From NCBI GenBank assembly GCA_903904875.1, contig CAIVEC010000015.1:1-54861 (forward strand): a stretch of 54,861 bases of DNA, read 5' to 3'. The stretch's first letter is position 1. The number at the start of each line of letters is the position of its first letter. Below the pieces are notes generated by a model, which had not been told where the DNA came from, did no database searches, and saw nothing but the letters and a program-made list of their open reading frames with translations. The position numbers were made by a program, and so were the translations under genes. Source of the DNA: an uncultured bacterium. GTDB lineage: Bacteria; Patescibacteriota; Gracilibacteria; Absconditabacterales; Absconditicoccaceae. This document shows positions 4,945 through 13,139 of this stretch, piece after piece.

Positions 4945-5400
4945 TTATAAATGCTTTATTTCCCTGTCCATCTGTTTTTTGATGTCCCTTTCTTTGAGGA
5001 TCTGTTTTTTTTCCACTTTTCTTATGAGCTTAGCGACTCAGATTTTCAACTTAATCAAGCCGCGTTTATTGATGAATATCTCCAGCGGGATGATTGTCGT
5101 TCCTGATTTATCTAATGCAGCAGAAATTTTCGCTAATTCTTTTTTGGTAATCAATAATTTCCTTTTGCCTTTGGATTGATACCCAGGCACGAGCGCATGC
5201 GAAGTCTTTTCATACAGTGGCACGTCCATATTGAGGACTCGTAATTCTTTGTCTTCTAATCTCACAATACTGTCTTTGATATTCACATGGCTTGCTTTGA
5301 TTGATTTGACTTCGTATCACTTCAAAATGATTCAGACCTCATATTCCTTGTCGATCTCATAATCGTGATACGCGTGTCTATTTTTGGTGATAAGCTTCAT
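4945..5400 (-). CDS. smpB: SsrA-binding protein SmpB
   Basis: MKLITKNRHAYHDYEIDKEYEVGIILKGYEVKSIKASHVNIKDS...RKLLITKKEL...INKRGLIKLKIGVAKLIRK. Confidence 0.93.
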
Positions 5401-6673: not shown

Positions 6674-8077
6674 CTAAAACGTGATGTCTTCCGATTTGAT
6701 TCTTTTTTGTTTCATGCTATCTCTTTCCCTGATGGTGACGGTTCCGTCTTCCAGACTCTGATGATCAACCGTGATGCAATATGGCGTTCCGATCTCGTCT
6801 TGTCTGCGGTAAGACTTTCCTATATTTCCGCTATCGTCGAATTCGCACATATGATCTTTACTGAGTTTTTTGTAAATATCGTGAGCCATCTGGACCATTT
6901 TTTCATCTTTTTTTACCAACGGTATGACGGCGAATTTTATCGGAGCGATATTCTTATGAAATCTCGCTACGACTCTTGTCTGCTCAACTCCATTACCATC
7001 GGTATATTTTTCCTCGTCATATGCATCTATCATAGCAGTCAAAATAGCTCTCGTGAGACCTCGACTCGGTTCGATGACATGTGGAACATATCTTTTCCCT
7101 GTCAGCGGATCACTGTATTGCAAATCCTTGCCGGAAAATTTTATATGCTGGCTCAGATCATAATCTGTCCTATATGCGATACCTTGCAATTCTCCCCGTC
7201 CCCATGGAAATTCGTATTCCACATCAAACGTTCCTTTGCTATAAAACGCTAATTCTTCTTTATCATGCTCTCTGAATTTTAATTTTTTTTCACTGATTCA
7301 GATTTCGTCGATCCATCGCTTCTTACTTGTTTGCATCCATTCTTTGAACGCTTTGAGTCAGACTTTCTCGTCATTTTCTACGAAATATTCTATCTCCATC
7401 TGATAAAATTCCCTTACTCTGAACATGAAATTTCCTGGAGTGATTTCGTTTCTGAATGCTTTTCCTACTTGAGCGATACCAAATGGTATCCTGACTCTCA
7501 TGGTATCTAAGATATTCTTAAAATTCACAAAAATTCCTTGCGCTGTTTCCGGTCTGAGATAGATATCCATTCATTCACCTTCAATCACGCCTTGTTCTGT
7601 TTTGAACATCAAGTTGAATTTTTTTGGTTCGGTCCATTCACTCGCTCAGCACACCGGACATTTGACTTTTTTGGCTCATAGAAAAGCGAATAAATCTTCC
7701 GCAGGTGTTTTTTCTCCCGCTCGGTTTTTTGGAAGCTCCTTATCCTTGGATTTCAGGAGAGATTCTTCAATCAGTTTATCTGCCCTAAATCTTGATTTGC
7801 ATTTTTTACAATCAACTAATGGATCAGAAAAACCAGCTACATGACCTGATGCTTCCCGAACTTTTGGATTCATGAGAATCTGAGAATCTAGTCAGATGAT
7901 ATCTCCTCTTTCCTGAACGAAATATGTTCGTCGGCTATTTTCTATATTTCTTTTGATTTCCGTTCCATAAGGTCCCAAATCCCGAGCATTAGCTAATCAT
8001 CCATAAATATCTGATCCTGGGTAGGCGAAACCTCTTCTTTTGGCTCGTGAAACGATAGTTTCTAGGCTAAATCACAT
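6674..8077 (-). CDS. glyS: Glycyl-tRNA synthetase (class IIa, single chain)
   Basis: [38 protein letters not shown]...[16 protein letters not shown]...[15 protein letters not shown]...[14 protein letters not shown]; starts ATG TGA. Confidence 0.94.
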
Positions 8078-8179
8078 AACAAAAAAAGTAATATACTAAA
8101 AAGTAAAGTATCATGAAGTATATAGGAAAAAGAGGGGGTTTTGCAATCAAAAAAGGGGGCAAAAAAAGTCCTCCAAAAT

Positions 8180-8207
8180 TTGCAAATTTTTGAATTCCGA
8201 GTATAAT
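8180..8207 (+). promoter_or_regulatory. Sigma70-like promoter TTGCAA-16nt-TATAAT
   Basis: Perfect -10 (8202-8207); predicted +1 about 8214. Confidence 0.65.
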
Positions 8208-8213
8208 TTGTGT

Positions 8214-8560
8214 AAGGAAGAAGGTCTTGCATATAACTATAATGCGATACACTATCAGTCTACTTGCTGTATTCTAGTGTTCTCACTATGGGTTTTGTAT
8301 CTAAAAGTGCTACACAAAAACAAAAACAAAACTGCCTATTATTTTATCCTTTTTGTAGCATCAAGCTTTTACTTACTCCTTGTAGTCTTCATTAGCTGGT
8401 ATAGTACTGTCAAAAACTGGTTTATACCTTTGTGTATATGTTGTTTGTATCGTATTGGTTGCGCATCCGCTTCGGTGGATACTGAAATCTCCGCTTTGCT
8501 AGTATAATAGCGAGGATCTGATTTTTGCAACGTTTTGTATACGAGTTCCTTCTTCCCTAC
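8214..8560 (+). ncRNA. Candidate structured ncRNA A
   Basis: Starts at predicted +1; 9-bp perfect long-range stem GGAAGAAGG (8216-8224)/CCTTCTTCC (8548-8556); internal hairpin ATCCGC-TTCG-GTGGAT; same outer stem in copy B. Confidence 0.45.
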
Positions 8561-8701
8561 CAAAAAAAACAGTCGAAAATGTTCATTAATATAGTCATAA
8601 AAAAGTCATCGAAAATTTGATACATTGTCCTTCAAAAATATAGTTCATGTTTTTGATTGAATAATGGATCAAATTAAGTCCATAAAAAAGTCATCTAAAA
8701 T

Positions 8702-8729
8702 TTGACAAATAAAAAATTTGGGGTATAAT
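8702..8729 (+). promoter_or_regulatory. Consensus sigma70 promoter TTGACA-16nt-TATAAT
   Basis: Perfect -35 (8702-8707) and -10 (8724-8729). Confidence 0.75.
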
Positions 8730-8735
8730 TAGAAT

Positions 8736-9110
8736 AAGCAATCTTCTCTCAATACCATATATTCGTTTTCTACTGATATATGCTATAGGAAGAAGGTCAT
8801 GAATAGATACCGTGTTAACCCTTACCGGTTAGCATCGCTCATTAATCTACTGATTCCTGTACGCTGTGCACTTCAACGTTGTTATGATGAAATTAGCGTT
8901 ATCATGATAATTATAGTACATGTGTTTATGGGTGTTAGTATAGGCTTGCCCTATATGCTGCTAATCAAAATGGTTTATGAGTAGGATGTTTTTGTTTCTT
9001 ATTATAAAGTCTCTTTGTAGTAATTCTTGAACATCTTATGTCTCTTTATCGGCTTTCTTCCTTACCTACACAAAAACAAAAGATAAAATCGCTTCTATGC
9101 GATTTTTTTT
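8736..9110 (+). ncRNA. Candidate structured ncRNA B (may also carry a 61-aa small ORF at 8799-8984)
   Basis: GGAAGAAGG (8788-8796) can pair with CTTTCTTCC (9053-9061, one G-U); palindrome TTATCATGATAA; ends at terminator 9085-9110. Confidence 0.4.
9085..9110 (+). terminator. Intrinsic terminator AAAATCGC-ttctat-GCGATTTTTTTT
   Basis: Perfect stem plus T8. Confidence 0.8.
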
Positions 9111-9178
9111 CATTCTTGACTTGATAGGTCAAAAGTCTAGTATGACCATATTATTTATCTTCTGTTTTTTTTCACAGA

Positions 9179-9625
9179 ATGAGTGATTGTATTTTTTGTA
9201 AAATAGTCGCCGGAGAAATTCCGAGCGTGAATATCCGAGAAGATGATGATTTTATCGCTATCTTTGATATCTTTCCTAATTGCAAAGGTCAGACTTTGGT
9301 GGTTTCCAAACAGCATTTTGATTCTGATGTATTTACTATAGACGATGATCATTATACCAAACATCTTCTGGCAGTCAAAAAAGTTATTTCATTGCTTAAG
9401 AAATGATTATGACTACAAAGAGTTGCAGCAGTAATGGAATGAATGTGAGTCAATCATGCTCATTTCAAATTATATCCTATGCATGGAGTAACAGGTGAAT
9501 GGAAAGAATATATCTGAGGAAGAGAAATCTTCTTCGATGAATATCCTGGATATGTCACTACAGAAATTGGTCCTAAAGCTGATATGAACGAACTCCAGAA
9601 ACTCGCTGAACAAATCAAAAAATAA
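9179..9625 (+). CDS. HIT family protein
   Basis: MSDCIFCKIVAGEIPSVNIREDDDFIAIFDIFPNCKGQTLVVSKQH...GVNHAHFKLYPMH. Confidence 0.9.
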
Positions 9626-9813: not shown

Positions 9814-10206
9814 ATGATTGCAATTCCAAAATTACTTTTGTTGCGGACGGTGTTCTTTTTCCTTGTATGGGCTCTGCCTATGATCATTAATCCAAAGTTC
9901 AGTGTCGGGCTGATAGAGAAACTTACGAAGAATACGGAACTTTCATTCTTGTTAGGATTCATTCTATTGGTTATCGCGTTCTTGTATCTCTTGGTATATG
10001 TTAATTTGGATGGCACCTGGTATATGATGTTCTCTATCATCGGATATCTTACCTTGCTCAAATGAGCAGTTATGATGTCCCTGCCAAGGCATGCAGCTAA
10101 AAACGCAAAAAGAATGTATGGTACGGCTTCTATGACAAGGATTATGTGAATACTAACGCTTGTTGTAGCTGCATTTATTCTCCGAGCTACGCTTGTTAAA
10201 TTCTAA
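9814..10206 (+). CDS. Integral membrane protein, tandem paralog 1 (130 aa)
   Basis: MIAIPKLLLLRTVFFFLVWALPMIINPKF...FSIIGYLTLLKGAVM; 131 codons. Confidence 0.75.
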
Positions 10207-10238
10207 TATCGTAGTTTTATTTTCTTATATATTTTCTC

Positions 10239-10631
10239 ATGTTTGCTTTTCCACAACTCCTTTTACTTCGGACAGCGTTCTTTATCCTGGCGTTCTGATT
10301 GCCGATGATTTTCGCTCCAAAGGTTTTCAAGTCTATCATAGAAAAAACTCTGAAAAATTTCGATATTGTCAGAGTCCGGGCGTTCATCACTATGCTCATC
10401 TGATTCCTGTTTTTGAGCGTCTATCAGAAATTCAATAATGGACGAGCTATGACATTTTCTATCTTCGGATATCTCTCATTGCTCAAGGGATTGATATTGC
10501 TCCGATTCCCAACTTGTGGACATGCTAAGTATAAACGGTTCTATTCAACCGTTACTGCTTCTGTTATCTTAGGTATCATCGTCGTACTTTTCGCTGCATT
10601 CCTTACCTGGATTGCATTGATAAAAATCTAA
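10239..10631 (+). CDS. Integral membrane protein, tandem paralog 2 (130 aa)
   Basis: MFAFPQLLLLRTAFFILAFGLPMIFAPKVF...FLSVYQKFNNGRAMTFSIFGYLSLLKGL. Confidence 0.78.
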
Positions 10632-10661
10632 TACTATTTTTTATCTGTTACTCTATATTCC

Positions 10662-11054
10662 ATGTTCACGTTTCCACAACTGCTCCTGCTTTTTTGGGCA
10701 TTAATCATCCTGGCTATGTGATTGCCGCTGCTTTTTGTCCCAAAAAAATTCAAACCAATCTTGGAAAGGATTCTGAAAAACTCTGATATCGTGAGAGTCT
10801 GGGCATTTCTTATGATGCTCATCTGATTCCTGTTTTTGAGTGTCTATCAGAAATTCGATAACGGATGGGCGATGATATTCCCTATTTTCGGATATATCGA
10901 ATTGCTCAAATGATTGACAACATTTCGATTCCCATCATGGGGACGGACAAAGTATAAATGGTTCTTCTCTAAACCTGTGCAATCATTCATCATGGGTATC
11001 CTGGTTATCCTTGTTGCAGTGTTTATTGCTTGGGTAGCGTTGATGAAGATCTAA
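10662..11054 (+). CDS. Integral membrane protein, tandem paralog 3 (130 aa)
   Basis: MFTFPQLLLLFWALIILAMGLPLLFVPKKF...FLSVYQKFDNGWAMIFPIFGYIELLKGL. Confidence 0.78.
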
Positions 11055-11429: not shown

Positions 11430-13139
11430 ATGATGAAAAAGATTCCCCTTATATTCTTCGTATCGTTTGCTCTTCTCTTTGTCACCGGATGCGGCAAACA
11501 AGTCGATGACACGGCATTGTCTACATGAACCGTGCAAGGATTCACCACTTCGTATGTGGTAGGAAGTTCACCGGCATTCCAGAAAGCGTTGTATGGAACC
11601 GTCATCGCCGATGACATCAAAAACGTTCTCACGAATAGGTGAGGCATTTTGGATTATATCGACTGTCAGCCAGGCAAGGAAGTCTATAAAGATACCATCA
11701 TCGCCAAGATAACACCGAATGAAGACGATGTTACGTATCAAAATTCAGCTATCCAGCTTTCTACCTTGCAAGAACAAGTGAATAATCTGACTACGATTTT
11801 CTCTATGACCGATGATACGCTTGCTTTGCAAAAATCCATCCTTCAAGACCAGTATGATAATAACGTCACGCTTCTGAATAATCTGAACAAATCACAAGAC
11901 TATAGCGCGTCAAGCATGAAGTACCAGGAACAATTATTGGATCAGCAATATGATTCTTTGAAAACTGCGAAGACCATAGATTTAGATAAAATGAAGACGA
12001 GCATTTTGAATGCATACAAACAATATCTCGTGATGATAAAAGATGCGTTGAAGAAAGTGAATGACGTATTCACCGCTTCGGCGTTTTCGGTTTCCGATAA
12101 GAATACTCAATTGAAACAAGAAGTGCTTTCAGAATATTCCAGACTACATAATGAATTATCCGATACCATGACAGCCGATCAATTTTCCCAATACCTGTCT
12201 GATATGTCGGATTTCATGGCTTTGGCTGCGAGCAGCGTCAATGCTTCGACACCATCGACCTCATTGCCTCAGGCGAGCAGTCTATGAGTTTCCATCGACT
12301 GATTGTATACTACATTCACTACCTTGGCGAGTACTTTCGTGGGAAGTAAATCCGCTTTCGATACTCTGGCTTCTTCGTATGATTCCGTGAAAAATACCTA
12401 TGCGACTCAGATAAAAAGCGCTGACATCAATTCAACTAACCTTGAAAACAATACTGCTAAGACGACAGCCTTGCAGCTCGAAAATCAGAAAGCAAGCTTG
12501 CAGCTTGCACAGAAGACGTTGGAAACGCAGCTCACTTCAGCTGATGATAACAAACAGCTCCAGCTTGCTAGCTTGAAGAATCAAGTGCTTACCTTGAAAC
12601 AGAATATAGCTGTCTTATCGAATTCCCTTGAAGGTGAGATCTTGTACGCTGATGTCGATGGAATCGTCAAGGCGAGAGTCGTCGGCGAAGATAATAAAGT
12701 CGCTCCAAATACTTTGCTTTGCCAGATCATGCCTACTTCGCCATGAAATCTCAGCTTGCAAGTATTCTCTTATACCCAGTTAGCTGTCGGCAGCAAAGTC
12801 GGCATCTATAACGATCAGTGAAAATTTCTTTGAACATGAACATTAGTGTACGAATATCCTTATAGAGATCCTGCGACGCAGAATTACATCTATGAAATCC
12901 CTGTATTGAAGTCTTCGCTCAAGGAGAATGAAAGAGTGTTGGTCACCTCTTCACAGCTCGCTGACCAGAATGATATACGGATACCTTTACAATACATCAG
13001 CCCGAGGCTCGAAGGTAATCTTGTTAGACGTAAAGTCGGATCGTGAATTCAGAATGTCTATGTGACCTTATGAAATATCGATGATAGTTATGTCCAGATT
13101 TTGAGCTGATTGAATATGTGAGACGAAATAGTGCAATAA
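11430..13139 (+). CDS. Lipoprotein membrane-fusion/periplasmic adaptor (HlyD/RND-MFP-like)
   Basis: Lipobox-like FALLFVTGCGKQ; biotinyl-lipoyl and long coiled-coil architecture (LEQVNNLTTIF..., GEILYADVDGIVKARVVGEDNKVAPNTLLCQI). Confidence 0.75.

Follow-up and report, generated by a model that had tools for sequence, protein, structure and literature searches.

The DNA between glyS and the gene of a HIT-domain protein in an SR1/Absconditabacteria genome carries a pair of units, A and B, which are likely standalone genes of trans-acting structured noncoding RNAs, most likely the RNA components of ribonucleoproteins (RNPs), of undescribed kinds and present in a part of one SR1/Absconditabacteria family. 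The analysis shows a promoter, a closed multi-helix fold with compensatory changes, a pseudoknot in B, a terminator, and the lack of a conserved reading frame; the function is inferred, and there are no expression data. Both RNAs are closed by the stem GGAAGAAGGUC...CUUCUUCC, further referred to as the handle. It is probably portable between RNAs; its sharing is shown by sequence comparison, whereas the meaning of this sharing is inferred.

The window, that is, the whole analysed stretch of 54,861 nucleotides, comes from an incomplete genome of 965,715 bases in 49 contigs, whose main gene frames are fully open only when TGA is read as Gly. The family of the window comprises 23 genera; genomes are labelled G###, genera g##, and loci L###. 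Close relatives recovered by glyS include SR1, Absconditabacteria, and Gracilibacteria genomes, one of these being RAAC1_SR1_1 (CP006913). The coordinates of the features are given in Table 1.

Table 1. Features of the RNA locus and its neighbours (positions in the window)
Feature	Position	Strand	Basis or comment
glyS, glycyl-tRNA synthetase, diverging neighbour	6674–8077	-	PF03129, PF00587
Upstream promoter box AAAAAGTCCTCCAAAATTTG of A	8163–8182	+	Exact copies at 8600–8619 and 8685–8704 (the latter is the box of B)
Promoter of A, TTGCAA-16-TATAAT	8180–8207	+	Consensus scan, 10/12 letters
RNA A (341 nt); the handle strands closing it are 8216–8224 and 8548–8556	8216–8556	+	Fold z, compensatory changes
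Loop CAAAAACAAAAACAAAA, A/C-rich, of the signature hairpin of A-type RNAs (here with the stem GCUAC/GUAGC)	8315–8331	+	Recurs in other genera
Hairpin AUCCGC-UUCG-GUGGAU of A (helix 12)	8465–8480	+	4/6 pairs compensatory; stem altered yet matching in relatives
Promoter of B, TTGACA-16-TATAAT	8702–8729	+	Consensus scan, 12/12 letters
Leader of B: AUCUUCUCUCAAUA, hairpin, UAUA	8741–8787	+	10 aligned leaders
RNA B (274 nt); the handle strands closing it are 8788–8796 and 9053–9061	8788–9061	+	Fold z, compensatory changes
Pseudoknot of B, strand 1 (AUUAGC, in a hairpin loop)	8892–8897	+	Pairs with 8960–8965
Pseudoknot strand 2 of B, GCUAAU	8960–8965	+	Pairs with 8892–8897
Stem of the intrinsic terminator past B, with eight T next to it	9085–9106	+	Terminator scan
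Likely own promoter of HIT, TTGACT-16-TAGTAT, past the terminator	9116–9143	+	Consensus scan, 9/12
HIT-domain protein gene (TGA=Gly), downstream neighbour	9179–9625	+	PF01230

The neighbouring genes yield two side observations. The glyS of the window is 79–85% identical to those of G008 and G010 (the latter from another genus) and only ~54% identical to those of G001, G004, and G005 from the same genus, though the neighbouring RNAs agree; this identity pattern within genus g1 suggests a replacement of glyS. Beyond HIT, at 9814–11054 of the forward strand, there are three tandem ORFs of 130 codons (starting at 9814, 10239, and 10662), apparently diverged copies of one small membrane-protein gene.

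The positions of A and B, their promoters and spacing, closing stems, 3′ ends, and the terminator had been given in a preliminary description, and all these claims hold. It had also placed the beginning of the A stem at the predicted +1; this holds, and for A only, because the stem of B begins ~59 nt after the -10 box, with a leader hairpin in between. The upstream box and the -10 box of A are kept in relatives. The box AAAAAGTCCTCCAAAATTTG has three exact matches in 54.9 kb, all at the RNA locus, while shuffles yield an expectation of 0.30 even when three mismatches are allowed. Both A and B have TTCTTCC(C/T)TACC ends. The assignment of an own promoter and terminator to the RNAs is supported by consensus matches only, and the interval from A to B in G002 and G007 has no visible promoter. 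A sequence similar to the likely HIT promoter is also present in G001 and, by reading, in G004.

A side observation concerns the conserved form of the upstream box, AAAAAGTCnnnnAAAATTTG[AC]. It extends into the -35 box and in the window is confined to these RNA promoters; in the family it is also present, often in tandem copies, ahead of many genes of proteins, several of which have signal-peptide-like starts (e.g., L103, L109, L110, L019, L025). Its possible roles are those of an UP-like element and of a site for a regulator.

The sequence GGAAGAAGGTC begins at 8216 in A and at 8788 in B, with exactly two copies in the genome, and GGAAGAAGG on the forward strand of the window occurs only in A and B. 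The pairing of the handle strands is perfect in A and includes one G-U in B, where the stem is extendable to 11 pairs. A chance partner within 150–600 nt is found for 0.75% of random window positions without G-U pairs, and for 4.4% if at most one G-U is allowed; given two closed units and the conservation in relatives, where both stems recur, chance is not the explanation. The handle is kept in g1, g3, g15, and g21, on RNAs of ~120 to 587 nt with unrelated interiors. As unrelated RNAs share this stem at their ends, it seems to be a portable end module; A and B themselves have unrelated interiors, hence these are not two copies of one RNA.

The fold of A yields z = -4.30 compared with dinucleotide shuffles. 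Its consensus (six sequences) contains 92 pairs, 14 of them with compensatory changes, vs. 5.6 in shuffles, with none of 500 shuffles reaching 14; 95.3% of the alignment cells are paired, vs. 30–50% when the partners are slid by 1–3 columns. The hairpin with the A/C-rich loop is also seen in g3, g15, g19, and g21, with different matching stems. Complementarity between this loop and a U-rich stretch of B, spotted by eye, is not kept in G001 and was disregarded.

For B, z is -6.02 for the RNA alone and -6.52 with the leader and terminator (again, vs. dinucleotide shuffles). Five close orthologues show 13 compensatory pairs. In the core of B, aligned for nine sequences from two genera, 15 of 23 pairs are compensatory, the pseudoknot included: its six pairs are formed in all nine sequences, and four of the six are compensatory. 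This nine-sequence core with the pseudoknot is strong evidence for B as a functional RNA. As the alignments of A and B are sequence-based and small, with few orthologues, the shuffle counts should not be read as probabilities.

The leader of B directly abuts GGAAGAAGGUC. The alignment of ten leaders reveals compensatory changes at 7 of 22 pairs; the share of paired cells is 94.1%, vs. 36–55% in slid alignments. The 5′ strand of the leader can pair with GGAAGAAGGU at 8788–8797: the base of the leader hairpin is extended by pairing of AUCUUC with GAAGGU, the strand that also closes B via its 3′ end. Because both helices use the same GGAAGAAGGU strand, the leader and the handle exclude each other. 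Folding of the growing transcript predicts the leader to be paired up to 8950 and the handle to be paired at 9062; the isolated duplexes have -7.0 (leader) and -17.3 kcal/mol (handle). The outer leader pairs hardly vary, therefore the competition rests on conserved complementarity, not on covariation.

Orthologues beside glyS and/or HIT are present both within the genus of the window and outside it, the RNAs being found in 5 of the 23 genera of the family. Beyond this genus, A-type RNAs adjoin glyS or HIT in three genera, one of them that of RAAC1_SR1_1, and a fourth genus has them at another location. Most orthologues fold significantly; the folds are weak relative to shuffles at the A position of G003 (z = -0.75) and G005 (z = -1.3). 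The order in G003 is B-type followed by A-type. In G008, A alone was detected. G006 has the leader and a shorter, diverged unit, and was excluded from the alignments. As a separate observation, the place of A in G005 (L118, reverse complement 12409–12705) is taken by a handle-closed unit of C-poor-in-A repeats (TTTGCTTTGCTTGG-like), unlike other copies.

In g15, the A-type RNA itself bears the leader. Next to it comes a third unit, C (~120 nt), closed by a handle of its own; B is found at a separate locus, where its neighbour is a tRNA or an engB-like gene. In g19 (RAAC1_SR1_1, G071, G026), the A-type hairpin with the A/C-rich loop is followed by a C-like domain, GGUAAUCC...GGAUU, with no obvious promoter between the A and C domains; a partial handle, GGAAG...CUUCC, is seen in G026 only. 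Model R3, derived from the C domains of g15 and g19, finds nothing credible in A of g1; the identification of the 3′ domain of A in g1 with the C domain of g15 and g19 was dropped, as R3 has no match there. A pattern search with the handle letters alone located a 587-nt RNA in another genus (G063 of g21). This unit follows a gltX-like gene, has the box promoter, the handle, and the A-type hairpin, and folds with -178.1 kcal/mol (z = -12.94); the next gene is on the opposite strand. Two further sites, G010:C86:4968 and G008:C8:48391, have the handle letters with no convincing unit, and R1 matches in G067 and G019 are too weak and were not accepted.

A search of 358 genomes of the class with model R2 of the B core, in which the first filter was coarse, retrieved no genomes except the nine from which the model had been built; the search models are of limited reach. 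Given the presence in 5 of 23 genera and no B core beyond the nine source genomes, a general cell function is unlikely. The RNAs are likely fast-evolving, with the sequence changing and the folding preserved in related genomes.

Comparison with known RNAs reveals no credible Rfam match, at gathering or permissive thresholds, for A, B, or the copies from g3, g15, g19, and g21; in particular, there is no covariance model match to GOLLD, ROOL, OLE, and other large RNAs of Rfam. The RNase P RNA model (RF00010) has no match at the A/B locus; the RNase P RNA of the same genome is found at G000:C12:18589-18922 (E = 8.7e-28; the score of 88.1 bits is below the curated cut-off of 100), and in total 20 of 21 genomes, this one included, have it elsewhere than at A/B. 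tmRNA (RF00023) is found at the locus neither by the covariance model nor by ARAGORN, and is seen above the cut-off elsewhere in 16 of 21 genomes, the incomplete genome of the window not being among them. Beside this, we observe the SmpB gene (PF01668) at 4945–5400 of the reverse strand, 2.7 kb from the RNAs. The models of small and large SRP RNA (RF00169, RF01854) match neither at the locus nor in 21 genomes of the class, the control for the large SRP RNA being weak; reading of A and B reveals no SRP core motif (the GGAA-loop core for Ffh). The 6S RNA model (RF00013) has no match within the window, the search not covering the whole genome; the predicted folds of A and B are multi-branched, in contrast to the long hairpin with a central bubble of 6S RNA. 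Hfq-dependent small RNAs were rejected as a candidate, since Hfq is found in none of 21 genomes.

Two ORFs, of 61 and 105 codons, overlap the RNAs and have no Pfam match. The code 25 frames are broken in relatives, with shifts from one species to another, hence protein coding is rejected. Phage and plasmid collections yield no match to the RNAs, and we have found no report of noncoding RNAs of Absconditabacteria in the open-access literature searched.

Further claims of the preliminary description may be assessed jointly. Two structured noncoding RNA genes with a matching closing stem are supported by compensatory changes in the stem and the interiors and by the absence of a conserved frame, transcription being inferred. 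The description of the interiors as differing but carrying local hairpins holds, and they are in fact unrelated; the absence of tmRNA, RNase P, and 6S signatures also holds, with no Rfam match and with RNase P RNA and tmRNA located elsewhere in relatives. From the checks it suggested, the Rfam scan matched no family, while folding and covariation in relatives yielded folds that beat shuffles and compensatory changes in A, B, and the leader. Neither a non-conserved stem nor protein-coding homology, both named as refuting outcomes, is seen: the stem is kept, the frames are broken, and there is no Pfam match. The leader of B, its mutual exclusion with the handle, the pseudoknot, and the presence of the handle on other RNAs had been missed.

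The biochemical function of A and B is not shown; by inference, a scaffold or RNP role is our most likely reading. In the proposed mechanism, during transcription of B the leader hairpin would first hold GGAAGAAGGU, the folding order being predicted; the last nucleotides of B, once they emerge, would displace the leader and close the RNA. The resulting stable body with the common end could be recognised by a shared protein or nuclease; this partner is inferred, and none has been identified. The leader may serve as a folding guard and a processing site. A bolder reading, which we would not expect to hold on balance, is an SR1 RNP system in which unrelated RNAs carry one handle, with a co-transcriptional switch from leader to handle, a shared protein reader, and domains split or joined between species. 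The common end module and the leader acting on the same strand make a directly testable idea of RNA folding and recognition, and both serve as search marks, as the handle pattern did for the 587-nt RNA.

The chief rival explanation is that A and B are tandem cis elements of HIT resembling riboswitches or attenuators, with the handle as P1 and the leader as the alternative pairing. It is supported by synteny: in g1, g3, g15, and two g19 genomes, an A-type RNA immediately precedes HIT and has the same orientation, even in G005 with its glyS ~10 kb away. Also in its favour are the terminator between B and HIT and the mutually exclusive helices, typical of riboswitches. However, HIT has a separate likely promoter past the terminator, and the RNA units also occur away from HIT: the B-type RNA of g15 is elsewhere, the gene after the 587-nt RNA is on the other strand, and the A-type RNA of G026 adjoins glyS, ~5 kb from HIT. 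A leader as long as ~900 nt and containing two promoters would be atypical. We regard cis-regulation as unlikely.

Still less probable is a highly diverged known housekeeping RNA, e.g., SRP RNA or 6S RNA. The place of SRP RNA looks vacant, as neither SRP model matches in the 21 genomes of the class, and B is close in size to the large SRP RNA; since SRP RNA remains undetected in these genomes, a vacant place cannot be excluded. On the other hand, permissive thresholds also reveal no match to any such family, the search for 6S RNA not extending over the whole genome; RNase P RNA and tmRNA are elsewhere in relatives, and the SRP core motif is not seen by reading; besides, a housekeeping RNA would be expected in all genera of the family, whereas A and B are found in few of them, and most of the class lacks these RNAs. 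Remnants of mobile elements or introns, or decayed small protein genes, with the shared ends as termini, are very unlikely. Two units with identical ends and the overlapping ORFs would fit this explanation; however, the frames are not conserved and lack Pfam matches, only two exact copies of the handle exist in the genome, phage and plasmid collections have no match, and the fixed locus and folding conserved in many species, i.e., selection on folding, largely refute it. The preferred reading remains that of standalone RNA genes.

GOLLD, ROOL, and OLE are large ornate bacterial RNAs (PMC12286853). The RNAs described here resemble them in being intergenic, long, multi-helix, and pseudoknot-bearing, without a conserved frame, and with function unsettled when found; they differ in having no Rfam match, in being mostly of 120–450 nt, and in that unrelated RNAs share a portable closing stem and a competing leader. 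Leaders of the riboswitch and attenuator type have a closing stem that competes with an alternative helix, and a terminator nearby. Both features are seen here. The differences are the upstream location of the competing strand, the likely separate promoter past the terminator, and the fact that several units do not precede a same-strand gene. The A and C domains, which are joined in g19 but form separate units in g15, are reminiscent of fragmented rRNAs; however, these RNAs are not rRNA, and the meeting of the pieces in one particle is not shown. To our knowledge, no RNA with this combination of features is known, nor has a class of structured noncoding RNAs been described for the recoded, host-dependent SR1 bacteria. 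The RNAs thus likely represent a new family within a known kind, structured bacterial noncoding RNAs, distinguished by an unusual shared end module.
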